Assembly: GCA_947396885.1 (NCBI GenBank)
Contig: OX377205.1
Coordinates: 67,056,969-67,120,968, forward strand
Origin: Heligmosomoides polygyrus polygyrus
Taxonomy: Eukaryota; Nematoda; Chromadorea; Rhabditida; Heligmosomidae
Reading direction: 5' to 3'
DNA length: 64,000 nt
Shown here: one piece after another, positions 3,593 to 58,715 of the stretch
Layout of the letters: every line of letters begins with the position of its first letter
Position numbering within the stretch: position 1 is the stretch's first letter
Program-made: the position numbers and the translations under genes
The notes under the pieces: generated by a model
Database searches by the model: none
What the model was told of the DNA's origin: nothing
Seen by the model: only the letters and a program-made list of their open reading frames with translations

Positions 3593-3756
3593 GAAAGCGA
3601 TTCCCGCTTGACTGATATTTATGTAAACCACATTCCAAATTAAAAATCGAAATGGATGTGATCTACACTGTTTTTTATTTTACTTTCATTTGATAGGCGC
3701 GTGAGATAGTGCAGCAATAGCAACTGTTATTTATTTACTGTTATTTTTTAAGCTAT

Positions 3757-8039: not shown

Positions 8040-9503
8040 TTATTTATTTATTTATTTATTTATTCATGACGTGAGCTAAGGCCACACGTGAAAATACAAT
8101 GTTAGAATAAAAACGCATAAACTCAATCAAAAACAAACGAATACATCCGAAGGCACTCATTGCATACGCAAAACAGCTTCTTGAAACCGTGCAAGGATAG
8201 ACCTAAGACTTCGTCATTTGTGCTCAAAATGTGGTTAAACTCCTTTAAATTTCTGTAGGTGAAAAAGCTTGCTCGGGCTCGCGATTTCGCCACCGAAACA
8301 TAAAGTCTGAGCTTGCCTCTTATGTTTCTTGTCAGCCTAGTGCCAAAAAAGTTGAGTGGGTTTATAGAAACCCTACCAGTTAGTATCTTAAACATCATGA
8401 GGAGGTCAGCTCTTTTCCTTCTTATGAAAAGGCTTGGTAATCCTGACATCTTCGTTCTTTCGGCACCATTTGACATCTGATAATAGTTATTCCCGTAGCA
8501 CCTCATCATCAGCTCACGAGTGAAACTATTCTGAACATTTTCTAGAAGAAGAATGTCTTTTTTCTTCGAATGATTAAAAACTGTTGTCCCACACTCTACC
8601 ATGGGTCTCACATATGTCTTATACGCCCGCAGAAAGATTTGAGGATCTCTGCTCATCATTGCTTTAAAAAGGTTGTAGATGCGGTAGTTAGCTTTCTTGG
8701 TCAATGCTTTATGATGCAAGTCAAAACTGAGGTCCTTAGATATTAGGAAGCCAAGATCGCGAATGTCAGCAGTTGTTTCTAATGTGACACCTCTCAGCTT
8801 GTAAGATGGGGTTACGACAGTGCGATTGGTCCCAATGACAAAACATTTAGATTTTTCTGCTGCTACAGGTAGTTCCCATTTATCAGCCCAGGAATCTATG
8901 TAGTTCACTGCTTCTTGAACTGCATATAAATCATCTGTACTTTCAGTGGTTTTATAGATCTTGATATCATGAAAGAGACTCTGGCAGTTCGTGGGTATAG
9001 AGCAGGAAGAGCAGAGGGGAAAGAACTCCCCCCTGCGGTACTCCGCTGAAAGCCTTAAAGATCTCGGAAAACTGCCCATTTATCTTAACTTGGTAAGTTC
9101 TTTCTGAGAGGAACTCACGTTTCCAGTTCACTATCATGTGATGAACACCGACCAATCTTAATTTTAGTAGCAGCTTTGATAATGCAACTCTATCGAAAGC
9201 CTTAGAGAAATCAAAATAGATCACATCTATACGCTTCTTTTCCTCAACAGCTTTCGTCCAATCACATAACGCTGTAAGTGTAGCAGTCTCAATCGACCTT
9301 CCCTTCAAAAAGCCAAACTGATTATCAGAAATAATGTTCTTTTCTTCAAGATGTTTTAAAATGTGTTTGCTAACAATTTTCTCAAAAACCTTTGCTAATA
9401 CAGACGTAATACTCACTGGTCTGTAGTTCGTGGGATTGCTATAAGGGGCTTTCTTAGGAATAGGAGTAACGAATGCATGTTTCCATCGAGAGGGGACCTC
9501 TGC
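8040..9503 (-). mobile_element. 5'-truncated CR1-like LINE inserted in the foldback element
   Basis: Minus-strand non-LTR retrotransposon fragment. It starts just upstream of the reverse transcriptase fingers and ends 3' in a (TAAA)n tail, seen as (TTTA)n at 8040-8065. It is flanked by an imperfect 8-bp duplication TT[C/T]GGATT (8032-8039 and 9504-9511). The uninterrupted sequence is present in the other arm of the foldback element near 10880-10890, which proves the insertion. Confidence 0.85.
8123..9490 (-). pseudogene. CR1-like LINE reverse transcriptase, broken
   Basis: The reading runs from 9490 (KAPYSNPTNYRPVSIT) through motif A (IYFDFSKAFDRV) and motif B (GVPQGGVLSPLLF). A deletion with frame change near 8970-9000 then removes the catalytic YADD segment. 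The second frame resumes at HDIKIYKTTE and continues through the thumb and C-terminal region (RAYKTYVRPMVE, NFTRE-like) to a stop at 8123. Loss of YADD makes the copy catalytically dead. Same family as the open frame at 21880-23193, but diverged. Confidence 0.85.
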
Positions 9504-9905
9504 TTTGGATTGAGACCTATATCATGTGAAAGAGCTTGAGACGCTGATCACAGATATGTAGACCGAATTTGCTAAATGGATCTTCTAAGCGAGTTATGGC
9601 CGGCAGAAGCCGCGATGTCTTCCATGTGTTAGGCGCGGTCAATCAGCGTTGTGCGCAGTATTGCGCGGTAATCAGCGGCTCGGCTATCAGAGCCTCCAGC
9701 AGCAGCGGCGGCGCAGTGGTAGAGTGTTCGCTAACAAAGATTGGGTTCACTGGTTCGGTTCCCGCCGTTGACGGCTTTTTTTGCATTTTGTGACCTATCT
9801 TCGACGAGCACCTATAATATCATTTTTTAGCACATTTTTGACCGCACGGCTTATGGTGACTTACATTTACGTCTATTTGAAGACGGAAACGTGTTTCAGG
9901 TAAAA

Positions 9906-21157: not shown

Positions 21158-21854
21158 GGGGGGGGGGGCAAAAGTAATGAGACTCTCCACGCCGTGTCCA
21201 TATATCTCGTGATGCAGTCTGTTTCGTGCTTATCGCACTTGTATGTTTGTATGCTACCTACTGAAGGCCACCTTAGAAGTTACCACTTCCGCCCTTTCAA
21301 GAAGCATGCCAAAACGCAGTCTGTCTCATGCCGAAACCCCAGCCTCACGAGATGACCTGTGTCGCGAAAATCTCTCCCGATTCCCAACCCCGAGCAGTCT
21401 GGACTCAATCTTAACACAGGATGAGAAGTACGTCTTCTACCTTAACCCTGCCAAGCAGCCAGCCTGGATGAAGCCTGTTGACCCGTTACCGACCTTCGTT
21501 CGGCGAGATGTTCACGGCGAGAAGCACCTTCAGAGCTTTTGGGTCTGCGCCCATAGAACGGTACTGGAAGCTGCTTACCAAAAGCACGACGATGGAGTCC
21601 AAAGCCACGGTAAACGAAATAGAAGAGATGGACCTGCGACTCGAACTTATTCAGGTAGAAGAAGGTCCTCTTCGACAACGCCGCACCCCATCGGGAACAA
21701 GTGACCACGGATAAGCTTGCCCAGTTGGGCTACGTTCACATGCTTCACCCACCGTATTCGCCGGACATCTCTCCATGCGACTACCACCACTTCTTGGGCC
21801 TACGGGACTTCCTGGTCGGAAGGGACACAAGAACCAAAGCAGTCTTTGACAACC

Positions 21855-23332
21855 ACAACCACAACCACGACCACACGACAATTACAGGCCGGTGAGCATA
21901 ACGTCATTTTTCTGCAGGCTTTTTGAGAAGGTTGTTAAGCAGCATTTAGTGCACCATCTTTCTGTACATAGGATCATTCCTCAACAACAGCATGGTTTTG
22001 TATCAGGAGGATCTGTAGAGACGAACTTAATCAAATGCATGAATGATTGGACTGAAGCGCTTGATAGCAAGCGCTGCTGTGATGTTATTTATTTTGACTT
22101 TGCCAAGGCGTTTGATAGGGTATCTCACAAAAAGTTGTTGTTCAAATTAGAAGAACTCAAGATACATCCAATTTTAACGAAGTGGATCGCTGATTTTCTA
22201 AATGAGAGAACGTTTCAAGTTAAAATTGGACATGTGTTCTCCGAAGTTAAACGTGTTACAAGTGGAGTACCTCAAGGAGGGGTATTATCGCCTATATTGT
22301 TTAACATTTTTACTTCGGAAATACCAGAAATTTTGCGTAATGTTTGTGATTGTGCCATGTATGCAGATGATGTAAAAATATACAGGGTCATTGATGGTGT
22401 TGATGATGAATTATGTCTTCAAAGAGGAATCAACTTATTGGTTTCCTGGTCTAAACAATGGCAGCTCCCCTTGGCTCCGCACAAAACGAGTTTCATTCGT
22501 ATTAGCAGCACTCCTTCAACTGCACAGCATACATATGAAGTGGATGGTCTCCACATCACATCGGTGGATCTCATTAGAGATCTTGGTTTCACATACAGCA
22601 GCAAACTAGACCTTTCCGAACATGTCAAAAATCGTTGTAGGATAGCGCTTCTGCGTACATTCCACATATTTAAAGCCCTTTCTACAAAGACCAGAGCTCT
22701 TTTAATAAGGGCTTACAAGACTTACATACGACCATTAGTTGAAACGAGCACTACAGTATTCAACCCTAGTAGGATGAAAGATATCTCCAGAATTGAGAAG
22801 GTCCAAAATAATTTTACTAGGAAATTATTTATTCGCATGGGAGGCTTCATATGCTGCAACATCCCCAACGCAGTGTTCAGAAATAGACATTTGGATCTTC
22901 CATCCCTCGTATCACGACGAAAGGTGTTTGATGTTTGTCTCGTTCATAAAATTCTGCACCAACCTAGTGTGGCTGTGATTATGAAATTATTTAGTTTGAT
23001 GCCTTCCCGAACTAGAGGTGGTATAATGAAAGTAGCCTTGCCTTGTCCGAGATCATCAGTTCGCGCTTCTTTCTTTACGCATAGAGCAGGTAGCGCTTAC
23101 ATAAGGATCACGAAAAACCTATCAAATGCTTACTCTATACCCCAGTTCAAGCAGTATGCATCAAAAATGTTGCTTAAGTTTGACGGACTCTAGTCATGGA
23201 GATCGACCACACCCAGTTCTTGATTGATTGTGCCTTTTTCTGAAGTTTGTTTGTCTGTTTGTACTGTCCTATTTCTATCTCGCGTCTGCCTTTCGCGACG
23301 TAATAAACATTAACATTAACATTAACATTAAC
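21855..23332 (+). mobile_element. 5'-truncated CR1-like LINE nested in mariner
   Basis: Inserted within the mariner transposase codons for FDN|HIEQL. The intact target sequence (GACAACCATATCGAGCAG) is seen in the copy at position 10-27. The left junction is a short CAACCA-like repeat run; the right junction is (CATTAA)4. AACCA is duplicated at both sides. Differs from the 8.0 kb copy in tail type: (CATTAA)n here, (TAAA)n there. Confidence 0.9.
21880..23193 (+). CDS. CR1-like non-LTR reverse transcriptase, open frame
   Basis: An uninterrupted frame enters from the 5' truncation (NYRPVSITSF; first Met codon context at 21892) and runs about 433 codons to TAG at 23191-23193. It has RT motif A (VIYFDFAKAFDRV), motif B (SGVPQGGVLSPILF) and catalytic motif C (AMYADDVKIY). 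The thumb and a conserved C-terminal region (IRAYKTYIRPLVE, NNFTRKLF, RASFFTHR) follow. The endonuclease and RT N-terminal part are missing. Such proteins copy element RNA at nicked chromosomal DNA. The frame is intact but, lacking endonuclease and promoter, this copy is presumably inactive. The intact frame suggests a fairly recent insertion. Confidence 0.9.
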   Translation, partial: NYRPVSITSFFCRLFEKVVKQHLVHHLSVHRIIPQQQHGFVSGGSVETNLIKCMNDWTEALDSKRCCDVIYFDFAKAFDRVSHKKLLFKLEELKIHPILTKWIADFLNERTFQVKIGHVFSEVKRVTSGVPQGGVLSPILFNIFTSEIPEILRNVCDCAMYADDVKIYRVIDGVDDELCLQRGINLLVSWSKQWQLPLAPHKTSFIRISSTPSTAQHTYEVDGLHITSVDLIRDLGFTYSSKLDLSEHVKNRCRIALLRTFHIFKALSTKTRALLIRAYKTYIRPLVETSTTVFNPSRMKDISRIEKVQNNFTRKLFIRMGGFICCNIPNAVFRNRHLDLPSLVSRRKVFDVCLVHKILHQPSVAVIMKLFSLMPSRTRGGIMKVALPCPRSSVRASFFTHRAGSAYIRITKNLSNAYSIPQFKQYASKMLLKFDGL

Positions 23333-47584: not shown

Positions 47585-48840
47585 ATTTTGGTTTAAAACT
47601 TTGTCAGATCATAACTTTGCCCTGAAGCAATTTCATTACTCGAAATAAGCACTTTTACAATTAACCCACTATTTCCAATGCGACAATAGTTTAGACATTC
47701 CATCCCTGCAAAAATCAGAACTGCGAGAATTAATGAAACATAAAACATTTTGTCTCTCAATCCATTCAGTTTCTGGAGAGCAATTTTTGGAACGTGCGGA
47801 CGCGCGTTGTCGTGCAGTAGGATTGGGCCTCTTCGATTGATCAAAGCCGGCTGACTGCTTGTCAATCAACGTTTGCTGCACCACTTCAATTTCGGCACAG
47901 TACTTCTCCGTTATGACAGTCTCTCTAGTCTTCAAGAAATTGTAATAGACTATACCAGCCATTGTCCACCATACGGTCATCACGAGCTTTTTTGGATGGA
48001 GTCTTGGTTTCGACACCCTTGGGACTCTCAGTCATCGTGCAGAGCGACTCCGATTGTCATAGAGGATCCGATTTTCGTCGCATGTAAAGACCCTGTCCAG
48101 AAAGGCTCCTTAGATTCAAATCAGTTTCTTTAAGCCACAATTGACTGGTACCGAGGATGTAAGCTGTTACAACGATGTTTCGTTGCGACCAAAACTTCTA
48201 GTACCAGGCGTGACTCGAACCCGCACTTCCCTCTGACCGGGCGGGAGTGCTCTACGCCATTACACCACCGGCGCTGTTTGATCGAACGCAACATCCACAC
48301 CTCGTGGGACCCATCAGCACTAAAGAAACTGATTTGAATCGTTTCCATCAAGACTATCAGCTTAACTGGTTCCATGCTGATACCAGCGGCCGGCTCATCC
48401 CGATATACGGGTGAGTGCTGATGGGTCCCACGACGTGTGGATGTTGCGTTCGATCAAACAGCGCCGGTGGGGTAATGTTCATTTATCCAATTTCTTTACT
48501 TTTCCGATCGCATTTAGGTGGCGACTGATAGTGCTGCCGTTAACGTTGAAATGCTGCGCTAGCTCCCTCACAGCTTGACGTGGATCTGTTTCCACCATGG
48601 GTTTGAGTTGTCATCGTTAAGGAGTGATAGCGGCCTACCTCGGTCTTCATCTTCAAGACTTTCATCTTCAGGTCGAAGCCTTTCAAACTAGTGGCGAATT
48701 GTGCGTTCCTTACCAAAATCCTCCCCAAAGGCAGAGTTGACGTTACGAGGTGCGGCCGCGGCCTTGTGTCCACTTTTCCATTCATATAATTCGAGCACGC
48801 AAATATCACCTTGAATCATACTATAAAACCGGCATTAAAA
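47585..48840 (-). pseudogene. Mariner transposase (Hsmar1-like), split by an insertion
   Basis: Minus-strand order: N-terminal HTH region at 48809-48540 (GEDFGKERTI-like, LEDEDRGRP, IGKVKKLDK), interruption 48475-48130, then FLDRVFTCDE, RLHPKKLVMTVWWTMAGIVY, INRRGPILLHDNARPHVPK and a decayed end near 47593. The DNARPH catalytic block is intact but frames change at least twice. Terminal inverted repeats were not found. Confidence 0.85.
48113..48475 (-). mobile_element. tRNA-derived palindromic insertion within mariner
   Basis: On the minus strand from 48280, GCGCCGGTGGTGTAATGGCG and GCGGGTTCGAGTCACGCC give A- and B-box-like signals of a tRNA-derived head. 48266-48322 and 48412-48470 are inverted copies (GCTGTTTGATCGAACGCAAC and CATCCACAC blocks). 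A second pair, 48113-48131 and 48322-48340 (GATTCAAATCAGTTTCTTT and its complement), includes flanking mariner sequence, implying the rearrangement happened after insertion. Confidence 0.65.
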
Positions 48841-51015: not shown

Positions 51016-52330
51016 ATCTTCTTCTTATTATTATTATTCAGCGTTTGTTCCGCATCGTCGCGGGGTCTGCTCTTCTGGTGTCGTGACTCCATCTGTTCCA
51101 TTCCTGCGCTTGGTCAGGGTGGACACCAGCTACTTTCATGTCCGTGTGTAACGTATCGGACCAACGCTGTTTCGGGCGCCCTCTAGGCCGCTTTCCTATT
51201 ACCTCGAAGTTAAGGCCTATCTTGCGGACGCTGCCTTCTTTCCCACGCAGAACGTGGCCCTACCATCGCAAGCGAGCTTCGCGGATCTTGTCCGCTTTCG
51301 GCGCGACACCGAACTTTTGCCGAATAGCATCATTTCGAATGCGGTCCATGCGCGTGACTCCAGCCGTCCAGCGCAGCATCTTCGTCTCCATGACGCTGAG
51401 GCGCGTTTCAACTTCCTTAGTCGCAGTCCAACACTCAGCGCCGTTCATCGCTACCCGCCGCACGACGGCTCTGTAAATCTTCGACTTCAGGTGCTCTGGT
51501 ATCTTCCACGCGTGAGTTCACTTCAACCATCAGCCCACCGTCAGACGCTATTGCTGATCCCAGGTATTTGCATGCAAGTTCAGTGCGTGTAAGTTCAGTA
51601 CCGTTAATCTTAATGGAGCCGGACTCGCTCACGTCAGTCGCTAGGTGCTTGGTCTTCTTGACGTTCAATTTGAGTCGAAACCTTGCAAGACGATCGCACC
51701 AAGCTTGAACCCGCCGCTCAAGATTTTTATCTTCGCAAGCGAGCATCACGTCATCAGCATAAAGCAGCGTCCATGGAACAGGCTGCTGAAGATCTCCGTA
51801 ATAGCATCCATGACGACAACGAACAGAAGTGGAGAAAGCGCAGAACCCTGTTGCACCCCAACAGAGATGGGAAACTTTGAGGTTCCAGCTGCAGCTTGCA
51901 CTCTACTCTTTGGGGCAAGAATAGAACATCCGCACCCACTCTATGAGATCCTCAGGTACGTTGTGTTGTCGCAAGGAGTACCATATAACCTCTCGCGGTA
52001 CGCGGTCGAAGGCCTTCTCCAAGTCGAGGGTGGCAATATGCTCTGCCTTTTGTTTCTGATACTGATACTTCTCCACCAGGAGGCGGGCGGCGTGTATAGC
52101 ATCAATGGTCCTACAACCAGACACAAAGCCGCACTGTTTGTCGGAGAGCTTGACGATTGCACGAATTCGTCTATCGAGGATTTGCTCGAAGATCTTCATG
52201 CTGTGCGAAAGTAAGCGAATCGGACGGTAATTGAAGCAGTCCGCAAGACTGCCCTTCTTCTTTAAAATCGGAATTGTCGTACTGTTGTGCCAACACTCCC
52301 GACTTTCTTCTCCTTTACTACCTGGTTGAA
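51016..52330 (-). mobile_element. GAA-tailed LINE, second copy (minus)
   Basis: Coding region 52330-51038 followed by a mixed AAT/GAAG run at 51016-51037. Homologous along its C-terminal half to 14431-15222, and longer at the 5' side. Confidence 0.85.
51038..52330 (-). pseudogene. LINE reverse transcriptase, GAA-tailed family, multiple breaks
   Basis: Minus-strand order: IPILKKKGSLADCFNYRPI-like start near 52270, MKIFEQILDRRIRAIV, motif A (IATLDLEKAFDRVPRE) near 52020, and motif B (a GVQQGSALSP-like segment) across a frame break near 51850. The catalytic WTLLYADDVMLACED follows near 51740, then KYLGSAIASDGG, MNGAECWTATKEVETRL, LRWTAGVTRMDRIRNDAIR and PATMRNKR at the stop. Motif C is intact but at least three frame changes and an internal deletion near 51500 kill it. 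Confidence 0.87.
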
Positions 52331-53430
52331 GAACTCAGCCAACCACTCAGCAGGATACCTGTTTGGGATGCATCACTTCCCAATGTAAATGAAGTGTGTA
52401 TTCCGCTGTTTTCTCACACTTGTATTTCATACACTTTATTGTCTCTGACCCACAATCAGCCATAAAAGTAAGACTAAAACATAGAGCAACAAATCGACCT
52501 TCCAAGTAATCAAATTGAGGGGAGCTAGCGGAGTTTGAGTTGTTTGTTATTTAGAGACATCCAACTTAGGCTTAATTGAACTATTTGAATTGGATCGCTT
52601 TCTTATTCCTTGTCTCTTGGTTAGTCAGTTAGCGGGTCCGCTCAAGTCGGTGCAAATACCGCTCACCATCGCGGGTGACGATGTCCGTTCCTTCACGTTG
52701 TGCCACTGGAAACTGCTCGCTCTGCGAGCTAAGCTAATCACTGACATTTGAATGCAGGCGACAGGCCCTTGTGACAGGCCGGCCTACGAAGACCCATGTC
52801 ACATCACATGATGTATGACAGTTCAAGAATTTTTACTATCATTTAAATGGAAATCGTGAGGTGCTGGAAGACTGTATGATGCAACTTGTTCTTTTATTAT
52901 ATGAAAAATTAGCGACTTTTCCGCACTTTAGAAAAAACTTTAACTTCATTATGTTATTAAAATTAGCAATTTGCATAAGGTTTTGAACACTGTGCTCACC
53001 AAAACGACGACGACAACGTCGCAACGGGCAATAATGAAGTTTCCACCTAAAAACTTCGTTGGCAGAAGAACACACTGAAATATACATCACAGTACCTACC
53101 TTTTCGGTTCTGATAAATTTTAAAATATCTTAAAGAAAGACACACTATATTTACATATCTATATTTTTTATACACTATATTTTTTATATTTTTTCCTTGC
53201 ACAAAAGATTTTACCAAACTTCTCAGAAAAATCAGTGCTTAATCTCGAAAACGTTCGATTTGATTTCATAGATAATCAAATCAATTTTGTTTCAAAATCG
53301 TCTACCATGTCTCCGAAAATGTCTAATTTGACCTGAAAATGGAAATACGCATGGCACCATCCTCTACCAATGGCGGCGGACAAGCGTTCTACCCCTGGCC
53401 CGCCCACCCCCGACCCCTGAGCTTGCTCGA
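52331..53430. other. No gene recognised
   Basis: AT-rich DNA with a minus frame at 52839-53090 lacking any known domain. The stretch 52620-52700 is more GC-rich with no identifiable structure. Confidence 0.35.
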
Positions 53431-53439
53431 AACTCCAGT

Positions 53440-54161
53440 GGCTGCCTTACGAGATAGTGGAGTATTTTCTCCAATTCTGTTCCTCGCATACACTTCCGAC
53501 CTTCCTGTGAGTTTAGTTACAGACTCTCGTGTAAAGGTACAAGGGTATGCCGATGATATAAAGGTCTACGGAATCTATAATGATAACAACAAGGCTCAGG
53601 CCTTGTCTCAGTCCGCCAATAATATGATAGAGTGGGCCAATGCTTGGCAAATTCCCGTTAATCTTTCCAAAACTTCAGCCTTTCATATTGGCAATGCACA
53701 CAATAACGAGTACTGTTTCAGTGATTGCACTCTCATTTCTACATCCGAGGTTTGCGACCTCGGAGTTCATCAGATCTTGGATTGTACCTTTGAGAATCAC
53801 CTTGATACCATAGTTCGGAAAGCTCTCTCCATGCTGTTTTTGACTTATAGAAACACCAAGTGTGATGACAGCTCGGTATTAGTTAGCTCATACAAGACAT
53901 ATGTCATTCCAGTACTAGAGTATTGCTCTCAGGTTTGAAGTCCTTACACAAAGAAGCTTTGAGCTAAAATTGAAGAGGGGCAGAGAACTTTTACAAAAAT
54001 TCTGGTCTATATGTATATAGGTGTGTGGGTAGTCCCAGAGATGCTCGTACGATTCTTAGTTATGAGGAAAGACTTAAGCTTTTTAACCTAAAAAACAAGT
54101 GTTACCTTCAAGCCTGCTGGATGCTAAAAACTCCTCTGATTTTGGTAGAAAATTGAACAAA
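53440..54161 (+). pseudogene. CR1-like LINE reverse transcriptase fragment
   Basis: GVFSPILFLAYTSDLP (motif B remnant), catalytic KVQGYADDIKVYGI, IEWANAWQIPVNLSKTSAFH, YKTYVIPVLEYCSQV, then a stop at about 53936. Weaker reading follows (SYEERLKLFNLKNKCYLQAC) up to the break point. Different subfamily from the 21.9 kb copy, judging by divergence. Confidence 0.8.
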
Positions 54162-54797
54162 TGATAAATAAGTGAAGCCATATAATTGTGATAATTTAAT
54201 TATGAAAGTATGAAAAAAAAATTAGTTTGGTTTTCGTTTCGCACGGGCTTTTAGACGAAAACCAAACGGACATAGTATCCTTCCCCCCTGTGCTCGTCAG
54301 TAAGGGAGGGGAAGGAAGAGGGAGTTGCTGCTTAAACTAACCTGAGCTCCTCCTGTTGAAGTTGGATTTGGCGAGCAATAATTGAACGTAAAGAAGCAAG
54401 TTTTAGATGTTATAGATAATTAACGCTATAAGGATACCACCGGAAAAGAATAAACCTTGAGTGAAAGGTGTTAAGGAGATGTAAGAAGGGTAGCAGTAAA
54501 TTAGAATAGAAAGAGCAACTCGCAGCAGTGGCACGGAGAGCGCAACGTGGCTCAACGAGAAGATCCACCACGGGGAAGGGACTGGATTAGTTGAAAAGGG
54601 GGAATGGTTGTTAGGGAAGGAGTTAGTTAAGGTGAAGGAGGAAATAATGATGAGGTAGACCCCCACGCCGAACCACCAAACGCCCTCCAGTCCACCACCA
54701 CGAGCCCAATAAGTTAGGCAGTATGTTTTTGTAGTTTATGTACTAGGACTTTAAGAGTGTTAAGAGTGATAAAATTAATGAACCGCTGGAAACAACA

Positions 54798-56846
54798 CTA
54801 ATCAAAGCACTTACATAACGAGTCCATTATTTGAATTTTAGAGTGACCTAGATCGTATTTATATTGGATAAATTTGTTTATATGAATGCATTTAAATAAC
54901 GAGCAATTGAAAAAGTTACTGTCATATCCTGACTCAAATAGTTGCCTTTTAGTATGCAAAAGTCTAGTTACGAAATCATCTTTAAAACTACAGGTGCGTG
55001 CAGTTCTTAGAATTTCTGCATAGATCGTGGCTTTTTTGATATTAGATGACAGATTGGCATCGAAATGAGGAAATCTCTTGATACTAAGATTAAAGGAATC
55101 TGTCTTATTATAAAGCTTAGTGGTTAGTCGATTGCCTGAGCTCTTTATTTCCATATCTAAATAGTTGCACGAGTAGTCGTTGTCATGAGTAATATCTAGG
55201 TTCAAGACATTATTATAGACGTTGATAAGTTTGTTATAAATATCATTAGTGCTGCTGTTATGGACAACTAAAATGTCGTCCATGTAACGGAACGGAATGA
55301 ACAAGTAGAGATTAGGATGAGTAAAAGAGTAAACATATTCGAAATATGTGAGAGTTAGATCAGCCATAAGAGGACTTGCATTACTACCCTGCGGTACTCC
55401 CACTTTTTGAATAAACAAATGGTCAGAGAATTTACAGTAGCTGTTACTAAGAAGGTAATCTATAAAATAAATAATATCGTGTATAGTGTAATATTTATAG
55501 TTTTTATTTCCTACAGAGTTACTGTAGAAGGGTTTATTATAACCATTATAGGCAATGAAGTTTTTGTTAGCATTTTTAAAACAAATTTTGAGTATCTCTC
55601 TAATATTGTTCAGAATATTGCAGTGGGGTAAATTAGTAAACATATTGGTGAAATCCGCTGAAAAAACTTTTATATTGTGCCCTCGTATATTTTGTATCCG
55701 TTCGCTTATATTAATGTTTTGAATAGACCAATATCCTATAAATCCTCTATTTCTAGTTCTAATGGTGTCGACGTAGTTATTAAAATGATTCCTAATAAAC
55801 TTAAGAATATTAGCTAGAAAGACGGAGAGTGGTTTAAGGCTGCTATCTGCCGCACCAGTTATGAACCTGAATTTAACTGGTGTTTTGTGTAGTTTAGGTA
55901 TACCATAAACTATTGGAATATTACTTCGCGGCAACAATTGTAGTTCATTAACAGTATTGAATTTAATGTGTTTTTGAATAATTTCTGCAGTGGTGTTAGA
56001 GTCTACTAAGGTGTACGTGTTATTTGTAGATGAAGACGTAATGGTTTTATTAACCACACTAAAGCCCATTTCTTTCATAACGCATTGAAGATAAAACTTC
56101 TTGCATACAATACCATAATTATTAGAAGCCTTGTCTAAGGGGCAAAAAACCCAGGTGTTTTGAAGACTTCTGATTTCCCGAAACGTTTTATTGTCTACAC
56201 TATCGTTTGTTTGGTAAATGGGTTTGTAAAATAAAGGCTTGATTACGTGTTTAAAGTTTCTTTCCAATATGGAACGAATCAAATTACTAACATTGTTTTT
56301 CAGTTTATATTTGTTTTTTATTACCGTTGTATAATTTTCGACATTACTTTGTATCCAATATCTGACAGCTTCTTTGTTGATTTGAGGGGTAGGTCTGAAT
56401 TTGCAACCTTTGTTTAGCAATTTTCTTATGCTGTGGTTAGTTATGACTTTAGTATTCCCTGTAACAATATGTCCTGAGTGTGGATCCACAAAGTTTTTAA
56501 AGCACGGATCAGTGCAAATGCATTTACTTTCTATAACCGTAGTAATTTTACGATCATCAATGTTTTTCAGAGTGTAATTATAATTGAATATAGTTCTTGA
56601 AATGGGAGGGTTATAAGTGAAGACTATTCTGATGGGAATGAAACCTACCTTCGAGTTTGATTTAATAATGTTTAAAATACTTTTCAAGTTTACCACCTTA
56701 TTTAAATTGGTATTATCTAAAAACCTATGTAAGAAGGGAGTTTTCAAAATGCAATAAAAATTTTGTGAAACACTGTTACGTTCCTGTGTGTTAGTAAATT
56801 GAAACTTACACAACAAGCAAAGCAGCATAAAAGTTTTTCCTTGCAA
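54798..56846 (-). CDS. Penelope-like reverse transcriptase, apparently intact
   Basis: 682 codons; the true start is probably by read-through or splicing from the endonuclease frame, not the Met at 56846. Conserved Penelope RT landmarks in order: FCPLDKASNNYGIV (about 234-247), YGIPKLHKTPVKFRF (314-328), motif A FSADFTNMFTNLP (395-407), motif B GVPQGSNASPLMADL (483-497), catalytic FRYMDDILVVHN (519-530), and YLDMEI (562-567). No stops or frameshifts inside. These RTs are the closest retroelement relatives of telomerase RT and prime on exposed DNA ends. With both catalytic domains intact the copy looks recent. Confidence 0.92.
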   Translation of the reverse strand: MQGKTFMLLCLLCKFQFTNTQERNSVSQNFYCILKTPFLHRFLDNTNLNKVVNLKSILNIIKSNSKVGFIPIRIVFTYNPPISRTIFNYNYTLKNIDDRKITTVIESKCICTDPCFKNFVDPHSGHIVTGNTKVITNHSIRKLLNKGCKFRPTPQINKEAVRYWIQSNVENYTTVIKNKYKLKNNVSNLIRSILERNFKHVIKPLFYKPIYQTNDSVDNKTFREIRSLQNTWVFCPLDKASNNYGIVCKKFYLQCVMKEMGFSVVNKTITSSSTNNTYTLVDSNTTAEIIQKHIKFNTVNELQLLPRSNIPIVYGIPKLHKTPVKFRFITGAADSSLKPLSVFLANILKFIRNHFNNYVDTIRTRNRGFIGYWSIQNINISERIQNIRGHNIKVFSADFTNMFTNLPHCNILNNIREILKICFKNANKNFIAYNGYNKPFYSNSVGNKNYKYYTIHDIIYFIDYLLSNSYCKFSDHLFIQKVGVPQGSNASPLMADLTLTYFEYVYSFTHPNLYLFIPFRYMDDILVVHNSSTNDIYNKLINVYNNVLNLDITHDNDYSCNYLDMEIKSSGNRLTTKLYNKTDSFNLSIKRFPHFDANLSSNIKKATIYAEILRTARTCSFKDDFVTRLLHTKRQLFESGYDSNFFNCSLFKCIHINKFIQYKYDLGHSKIQIMDSLCKCFD

Positions 56847-57767
56847 AGCTGATCCAAAAGGTTACCTTCGTAACAGTTTTTTATAAAGAAATTAATTACT
56901 TTCTTTTTGAGACTGTATAAACAGCACCTGATTATACTAATGTTACAGGTATCTCTAACAACGTTAATGAATGCTTGGGCCTGCTTAGCTATATCTACAT
57001 GAGTTTTTTGTTTCTTAGGTCTATGCGCCGGACGATTTTTTCCCTTAGTAATTTTGAGGTTAAAGTATGGATGATTAGGTTTGTAAGTAAGGGGATTATT
57101 GATACTAGATATGTTCCCATACGATTTAACGCAGTCATTGTTTCCAAATGGATAGGCAGTAATTAAAAGTTTAGTCCAGAAGAACTCTTTTTCTTGTAAA
57201 ACTGCTTTATCTGTATTATCTGGCAGATTGTCCAAGATAGAGAAGGAATAATCTGCACACTTACAAATATTGCTAAAATGGTTGTACAAAAAGTTGAAAT
57301 TGTCACGTTTTTTGATGTGGTAAATATGTTCCCTCATACGGTCTTTAAACGTTCTTGTAGTGAGTCCTACGTACTGGAAACCGCAGCATAAACAGTTGAG
57401 GCAGTAGACAACGTTTGTGCTGTTGCAGTTTGCTTCGGTAGTAACGTATGTATTTACTTTAAGTTTCGTAGTGTTGGATATTACAAAAGGTTTTTCCTTG
57501 ATGAGGTTACATTTATTGCAGTTTGTAGAACATTTTAAAGGTTTATGTAGGGTACCAAAGTTTGTTATTTGGTAGTAACCATCAACCTTGCTCTTAGTGA
57601 ATGAACGGCATAGGTAATAGTCGAGACAGTTGGAACGGTTGTTTGTAGACCCATAGGATAAGTATATGGTGGGCCTAAACCATATAGTAGGGAGGAAGGT
57701 TTTGGGGAGACTGCCCCACAGGTACCCGCGAACCCAAAAACAGAAACAAATTGAGTAAACAAATTGA
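56744..57767 (-). CDS. GIY-YIG endonuclease part of permuted Penelope-like element
   Basis: The frame is open from the element edge at 57767 (the upstream extension to 57778 is LINE flank) to a stop at 56744. After a Cys-rich segment (KCSTNCNKC, residues about 82-90 counted from 57778) comes the GIY-YIG core: VVYCLNC (123-129), YVGLTTRTFKDRMREHI (136-152, with the conserved Arg), and the metal-binding Glu in LQEKEFFWTKLL with TAYPFGNND after it. All key residues are present, so the domain looks catalytically sound. A basic stretch (KGKNRPAHRPKKQKTH) follows. The last about 20 codons after 56809 are replaced if the 26-nt candidate intron is removed. No ATG precedes the domain, consistent with 5' truncation. 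Confidence 0.85.
56784..56809 (-). other. 26-nt GT...AG segment, candidate mini-intron
   Basis: On the minus strand it starts GTAAGTTTC and ends ACTAACACACAG, including a CTAAC branch-like word. Deleting it moves the upstream frame (CFACC) directly into the downstream frame (ERNSVSQNF), giving one continuous endonuclease-RT protein of about 1000 residues. At 26 nt it is shorter than usual nematode introns, so a programmed frameshift or a later indel remains possible. Confidence 0.55.
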
Positions 57768-58194
57768 GTTACCTTCAAGCCTGCTGGATGCTAAAAACTC
57801 CTCTGATTTTGGTAGAAAATTGAACAAAATCGATCTGCTCTCAACCTTGTATTTGGATCTATATCTTAGATTATATCTTAAAGACAACTTTTTCTTTCCT
57901 ACTGGTTTTTTAGTCTTTGTCTAGTTTTCTTTAAGTTTTAGATTTTTTCTGTTTTTTGTTCAATTTTTTTACATATTAGATTGTTCCTATTCATTTTTTT
58001 CAGCATTACTATATTCTTTTGCCAGCTGTTATTTTCTGTCTTACTCTGAATTGTTGTGCTTATCTGTTTAATTGTTCGCTTGCTTCTCAAATTTTTCTTC
58101 GCTCACTTGATTTGTTTCTGTTTACTGCCATTTCTATATGTTTTCTTCGATTTATGTCACTGCCTGAAACTCTCTCTACTGGGTCTACCAGGTT

Positions 58195-58491
58195 TTGTCC
58201 TGCGAAGAATTTTATATAGGTGAAACAGCGAGACCACTATGGAAGAGAATGGATGAGCACGTGAGAGCTCTGCGTAACCCTCAGAGCTACCTGGACAATC
58301 CATTCTCGAAGCACCGCACCCTGAGACACACGCGTGAGCCACCGCCGCAATTGCGGATTTCTATCCTCCACAAAAATCTGGCAGACCCAGTAGAGAGGAA
58401 GATCAAGGAAGCGCTAGAAATAAAAAACTGGGAGCCACCGATTAACAATAGTGAAGAAATGAAGTATGCGATGAGTCTTATCACTCTATAG
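58195..58491 (+). pseudogene. C-terminal GIY-YIG domain of canonical Penelope-like element
   Basis: Reads VLSCEEFYIGETARPLWKRM, then DEHVRALRN, HRTLRHTRE, ADPVERKIKEALEI and NWEPPINN, ending ITL. YIGET and the following Arg and Glu-His match the second half of a GIY-YIG core; KEALEIKNW carries the conserved Glu region. The RT and the first GIY segment are absent, so this is a 5'-truncated copy. It is clearly a different lineage from the element at 54162-57767. Confidence 0.85.
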
Positions 58492-58715
58492 GGGCTAGCG
58501 ACGTGACCGCTGAAGACCATCGTGACATATAAATGACTAGTCACGACTCGACCATATATAAAGAGTCCGAGCACCCCTGCACTTCATTTCCTGCCAACCA
58601 ACGTCCAAGAAGACCTTGGCCCTTCCCTCCCCTTGTAATCCGTCGTGGATCCCAGGTCCGTATTTCTTGCCGCTTTACTGTATGTGTGTGCTAAGTAGCA
58701 TTATTGTATTCAGAT

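Follow-up and report, generated by a model that had tools for sequence, protein, structure and literature searches.

Canonical Penelope elements join a telomerase-like reverse transcriptase (RT) to a GIY-YIG endonuclease (EN) placed after it, whereas a permuted branch of Penelope-like elements (PLEs) carries the EN at the N terminus. That branch includes Chlamys, from green algae, spike mosses and slime moulds, and Naiad, the name reportedly given to N-terminal-EN PLEs by Craig et al. 2021, said also to be the source of the diagnostic features used here. Both groups are marked by a CxC motif between EN and RT and by an insertion-in-fingers domain within RT; a CCHH zinc motif in the EN is present in Naiad and absent in Chlamys, and Naiad elements show pseudo-long terminal repeats (pseudo-LTRs), partial tandem insertions and an insertion bias for microsatellites. 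We analysed a 64,000-nucleotide stretch of the genome of the nematode Heligmosomoides polygyrus polygyrus (hereafter the window; contig OX377205.1 of assembly GCA_947396885.1, C1:67056969-67120968), in which the minus-strand element at 54162-57767 is very probably a dead, 5'-truncated copy of a multi-copy, Naiad-like N-terminal-EN retrotransposon, inserted beside or in a long interspersed nuclear element (LINE). Its domain order, its relatives, the tandem arrangement of fuller copies, the shared 3' end, the 5' truncation and the flanking repeat were observed directly. PLE/Naiad and PLE/Chlamys are repeat library classes in the available part of one source (PMC10941475). No report of a nematode Naiad turned up in the literature, subscription papers lying mostly outside the search, and we do not claim that such elements are unpublished.

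Domain order of the window element

The features of the element and its immediate flanks are as follows.

54162..57767, minus strand: 5'-truncated copy of a PLE with EN before RT, delimited by alignment to genome copies (query 6 to 3604-3606) and by 61-bp repeats on either side
56744..57790, minus strand: EN frame (P0002), 348 codons from stop to stop, without ATG before the GIY-YIG core, the first codons lying inside the flanking repeat
57092..57439, minus strand: GIY-YIG endonuclease domain, P0002 residues 118-233, with C133, C136, H155, H171, Y129, Y140, G142, R151, E202 and N218
54798..56861, minus strand: RT frame (P0001), 687 codons plus stop, comprising pre-core region, RT core and thumb
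54969..56153, minus strand: RT core, P0001 residues 237-631, with motifs SADFTNM, GVPQGSN and YMDD
56514..56522, minus strand: CxC linker motif, C114 and C116 of P0001
56798..56826, minus strand: frame break, where homology leaves the EN frame and continues in the RT frame in alignments to P0027 and P0003
54162..54797, minus strand: 3' untranslated region, up to the common 3' end of the family (31 of 55 genome match rows stop at query 3604-3606)
54225..54267, minus strand: hairpin with a 13-bp stem from RNA folding, a possible RT recognition structure
54101..54161, no strand: 61-bp direct repeat, 3'-side copy, probable target-site duplication
57768..57828, no strand: 61-bp direct repeat, 5'-side copy, probable target-site duplication
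53453..54052, plus strand: degraded LINE reverse transcriptase on the left flank (E 3e-22 in a tblastn search with a LINE-type RT from elsewhere in the window)

All six motifs on which the initial annotation relied were found on the minus strand where it had placed them: VVYCLNC, YVGLTTR and EKEFFW within the EN frame (57790..56744) and the other three in the RT core. The two frames differ and overlap by 118 nt. An open frame of 687 codons is far beyond chance (mean 90, maximum 186 codons in 500 first-order Markov versions of the element), and the GC content of the element is 0.35, against 0.46 for the rest of the window. Both domains are weak in Pfam (RVT_1 on the RT frame, 2.8e-6 and 27.6 bits against a curated cut-off of 29.6; GIY-YIG on the EN frame, 0.01 and 16.6 bits against 22.6), and their identity is settled by their relatives. 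An AlphaFold2 model of the RT frame (mean confidence score pLDDT 88.5) resembles telomerases, which make up its 14 best PDB matches at 10-14% identity in structural alignments; the predicted EN structure has I-TevI as its best solved match.

Relatives and phylogenetic placement

A search with P0001 found 35 proteins, which together with a profile search (25 rows) and a search with one canonical relative (best 120 of 345) yielded a set of 179 proteins that includes P0001 and P0002. Domain hidden Markov models (HMMs) placed EN before RT in 37 of these and after RT in 119, while 23 could not be judged; the claim of an order opposite to that of canonical elements was therefore upheld, with 37 proteins sharing it and 119 having the reverse. 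With matches counted at E up to 10, P0001 recovers the 37 EN-first proteins without exception and 117 of the 119 canonical proteins, at medians of 249 and 64 bits respectively, and P0002 matches every protein of both kinds (medians of 81 versus 33 bits). The closest full-length relative is 42% identical in RT and 45% in EN, and a partial relative reaches 52% in EN. EN-first relatives carry EN and RT in one protein and one frame; the partial protein P0027, which runs in one frame across the EN/RT linker, aligns with the window EN frame until the RT frame takes over. One protein, P0029, has the EN-first order yet scores highest against the canonical HMMs. Searches of viral and bacterial genome collections confirmed no related locus. 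These comparisons indicate that the EN-before-RT order of the window element is genuine.

Phylogenetic analysis agrees with the domain order. In an RT tree of 82 rows (among canonical rows with numbers above 65, only those divisible by 5 were included), a branch with support of 100/100 splits the EN-first rows, including that of the window, from the canonical rows, and P0001 groups with P0003, P0004 and P0005 at 100/99. A second RT tree of 58 rows, built without P0058, P0059 and most undetermined rows from columns occupied in 85% or more of the rows, recovers the same split at 100/100. The EN tree (71 rows) joins P0002 with P0027 (100/95) and P0003 (100/90), so that both window domains have the same nearest full-length EN-first relative, P0003, and parts 29 canonical endonucleases from the rest by a branch with 98/93. 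The proposal in the initial annotation that the element is of the permuted kind is thus borne out, its RT not grouping with canonical C-terminal-EN elements.

Three points count against this placement. In the EN tree a single canonical group is unsupported (20/0), since P0058 and P0059 are placed on the side of the EN-first rows. An approximately unbiased (AU) test with P0001 forced to the canonical side gave a log-likelihood 14.5 worse and p 0.0735, so that the constraint is not rejected at 5%. Moreover, the comparison set contains no named Naiad or Chlamys sequence, so the assignment of the window element, on its sequence features, as an N-terminal-EN PLE most like Naiad is made against the Naiad marks given above. 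P0058 and P0059 are themselves unusual, with EN located after RT but nearer to EN-first endonucleases, on very long branches.

Those marks are distributed as follows. The CxC linker pattern occurs in 36 of the 37 EN-first proteins (all except P0049), in none of the 119 canonical proteins, and in the window element. CCHH-type EN residues are present in the window element (C133, C136, H155 and H171 of P0002) and, by a strict pattern, in 28 of the 37 EN-first proteins; in alignment A4, C133, C136 and H171 are invariant and H155 nearly so. The spacing between RT motifs A and B is 85 residues in the window element, compared with a median of 84 in EN-first proteins (36 rows, 60-101) and 59 in canonical proteins (111 rows, 55-60); this spacing and the telomerase fold are compatible with a possible insertion-in-fingers domain.

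The window element thus resembles Naiad in having EN before RT, a CxC linker, CCHH-type EN residues and a long motif A-B spacing; it differs from Naiad in being a truncated and broken copy that lies beside a LINE rather than a microsatellite and is flanked by a 61-bp repeat. It shares with Chlamys the position of the EN but differs in possessing the CCHH residues. With canonical C-terminal-EN Penelope (P0037 and relatives) it has in common a GIY-YIG EN, a telomerase-like RT and tandem organisation, and it is set apart by its reversed domain order, its CxC linker pattern and its A-B spacing of 85 versus 59. The RT frame is also like telomerase reverse transcriptase in its predicted fold, although telomerase is unlike a mobile element with an endonuclease. 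The modest identity to the closest relatives given above would suit a separate EN-first clade outside Naiad and Chlamys, but this is improbable, as the window domains nest inside the EN-first set in both trees and have the CCHH-type residues that mark Naiad against Chlamys. The domain order already known for the N-terminal-EN group is unchanged by the window element, which may help to classify repeats merged with LINEs by standard software, as is described for Pristionchus pacificus in the available part of one source (PMC9297572).

Copies in the source genome and the EN/RT junction

The initial annotation had recommended a search of the source genome for further copies. In the 656-Mb assembly (1130 contigs) the element gives at least 55 match rows, some of which are pieces of one copy, and 31 of the 55 end at query 3604-3606; copy counts are lower bounds because only 40 of 1061 candidate places were scored. 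We fetched 28 copies including that of the window, namely the 8 best and 20 more, the latter (L009-L028) mostly chosen for reaching the 3' end, so that the common 3' end among fetched copies is partly due to choice; the proportion free of this bias is 31 of 55 rows. All but one (L007) reach the 3' end, and over the main stretch of each, the other 26 that do so share 90 to 97% identity with the window copy. Their 5' starts are scattered along the element, which together with the common 3' end is the picture of 5' truncation.

Fuller copies reveal a 5' region of ~770 bp that is absent from the window copy. Three of them (L004, L006 and L013, which was also seen as L029) have an additional ~750-770 bp on the 5' side, and in each case this extra region directly abuts, head to tail, the 3' end of a preceding copy; this arrangement, not visible in the truncated window copy, is a partial tandem, the pseudo-LTR layout of Penelope elements, and the repetition of the 3' end at the 5' end is a further likeness to Naiad. 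Shorter extensions are found in L002 (239 nt) and L003 (223 nt). Because fuller copies extend further 5', the window copy is 5'-truncated; the first methionine of its EN frame is residue 152, within the EN domain. The description of its domains as complete and of the copy as open accordingly does not hold: the copy is truncated, its EN core is preceded by no ATG, and the frame changes between EN and RT. Its supposed recency is plausible, the 61-bp repeats being identical and the nearest other copies 96-97% identical, and we regard it as a broken, truncated and fairly young copy. The element adds a multi-copy family, with pseudo-LTR tandems in its fuller copies, to the known permuted, telomerase-like branch of Penelope elements.

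The junction between EN and RT is in one frame in five of the seven other assessable copies (L002, L003, L005, L006 and L013), and L003 has an ATG at the start of the EN frame. For these reasons the family is taken to encode one EN-RT protein by descent, the window copy being broken. On the other side of the balance stand L008, which is interrupted at the junction, and L028, both of which change frame there as the window copy does; unusual frameshifting at the junction is also conceivable. L002 has its EN core in another frame further upstream, and no fetched copy has a single open frame over EN and RT, the longest being 698 codons (L004).

Two other explanations of the junction bear on this conclusion. 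A canonical C-terminal-EN Penelope in tandem, with the EN frame belonging to the upstream copy, was the outcome that the initial annotation had named as decisive against its own reading; tandem Penelope elements do occur, in the source genome too, and EN and RT of the window lie in different frames. However, the list of open reading frames contains no EN frame between the RT stop at 54798 and the 3' end of the element, relatives have EN then RT within one protein, both domains share P0003 as nearest full-length relative, and the other copies keep the EN-RT order with the one-frame junctions described above, so that this origin is extremely improbable. A two-frame element, expressing EN alone or EN-RT by programmed frameshifting, would account for two long, open frames with a 118-nt overlap and for the frame changes of L008 and L028, but is very improbable given the five one-frame junctions, the interruption of L008 at this very place and the one-frame EN-first relatives. 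From ~56890 to the end of the EN frame there is a single in-frame X_XXY_YYZ heptamer, at 56882, which leads to a stop, and in the RT frame a stop immediately precedes 56861. The EN/RT break and the missing start codon would then be damage of the window copy rather than a programmed two-frame design.

For a one-protein family of this kind, a working source copy would encode EN, linker and telomerase-like RT in a single polypeptide. Its GIY-YIG domain would nick the target, and RT would copy the element RNA from a fixed 3' end by target-primed reverse transcription, frequent early stops in copying leaving 5'-truncated copies. Nicking, target-primed copying from the 3' part of the RNA and early stopping are a likely path by analogy with a Poseidon element studied in vitro, as far as the available part of that source goes (PMC11167929). 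The 13-bp hairpin ~63 nt before the 3' end is a candidate RT binding site: RNA folding of 54225-54275 predicts -16.3 kcal/mol (z -4.42), and 0 of 200 shuffles were as low.

Rfam searches found no hammerhead at E up to 5 in window positions 53500-58500, nor at E up to 2 in L004, L006, L013 and L029, another point of similarity to Naiad, which is not known to carry a canonical hammerhead ribozyme. A hammerhead-like half core (CUGANGA ... GAAA with a 4-bp stem, 54235-54300, minus strand) was rejected, stems I and III not being visible; this pattern occurs once in the window, with 0.3 expected. Sub-threshold matches to mir-297 in the 5' region of L004, L006 and L013 (= L029), of 26.9-39.2 bits against a gathering threshold of 90 and with a best E of 7e-4, were assumed to reflect low complexity. 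By eye, the 40 nt past the 3' end of the 27 copies have no common short repeat, apart from L012, in which repeats of the element's last bases, joined to TGAGCT, come after the 3' end.

The 61-bp flanking repeat and the surroundings of the insertion

An exact 61-bp direct repeat (54101-54161 and 57768-57828) brackets the element. Only the window copy has this sequence beside it; the other 30 loci, representing 27 further copies, lack it, and the 200 nt after the 3' end differ among the 27 copies, except between L023 and L024 (97.5% identical). Because the repeat is absent at other copies and their 3' flanks differ, the most plausible reading is host DNA duplicated on insertion, a target-site duplication of unusual length. 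In 11 of the 27 copies the aligned end is followed by TTTG; the element may therefore extend a few nucleotides past it, which would make the duplication a few nucleotides shorter than 61. Under the path proposed above, the duplication would result from a second-strand cut far from the first nick.

A difficulty for this reading is that the 5' edges of the other copies have no matching duplication (23 of 26 searched with 500 nt upstream, L004, L013 and L026 being without upstream DNA); 61 bp may therefore be exceptional. A strict search gave matches of 6-12 nt in 7 of the 26 copies (L004, L006, L011, L017, L019, L023 and L024), which were dismissed as the element's own repeated end or chance, and a wider search gave only matches of 10-11 nt (L013, L025 and L028), away from the expected place. 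That the repeat is instead a terminal repeat of the element has little probability: Penelope pseudo-LTRs exist, a 13-nt inverted match to the repeat is found 126 nt beyond it (of 2000 Markov flanks, 0 reach 14 and 25 reach 11), and the duplications of canonical Penelope in the rotifer Adineta vaga are 8-10 bp in the available part of the source (PMC3846280), but the 30 other loci lack the sequence, the 3' flanks differ with the one exception named, and the pseudo-LTR of the family is its own 3' end, different in sequence from the 61-bp repeat. With a target-site duplication as the preferred interpretation, a nematode EN-first lineage with very widely staggered EN cuts (tens of bp, 61 here), in which most insertions leave no clear duplication, is conceivable though unlikely. 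A single insertion with so clean a flanking repeat helps to ask how GIY-YIG retroelements cut and prime.

On its left side the window copy adjoins a LINE-type RT, degraded and lying on the opposite strand (E 3e-22), which we take to be CR1-like; continuity of this LINE on the right side of the 61-bp repeat gave no significant match. A 13-bp unit occurs twice, exactly, across the 5' junction of the element (57744-57769) and was possibly made at insertion. L023 and L024, which lie on different contigs (C39 and C27), besides their similar 3' flanks, have the same 5' start (1453) and the same internal gap (2208-2278), as if duplicated with their surroundings or carried in a larger repeat.

Elsewhere in the window, an open frame on the strand opposite to the element (58168-58491, plus strand) is by eye like the C-terminal EN of canonical Penelope (YIGETARPLWKRMDEH); it has no Pfam GIY-YIG match at E up to 1. 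LINE-type RT frames resembling the left-flank RT are located at 8123-9521 (minus strand; RVT_1 9.8e-27 in 8970-9521) and 21850-23193 (plus strand; RVT_1 4.7e-36 in 21850-23190), and a further reverse transcriptase fragment at 51903-52334 (minus strand; RVT_1 1.5e-16). ARAGORN, with the bacterial setting, identified a tRNA-Thr(ggt) at 48199-48275 (minus strand).

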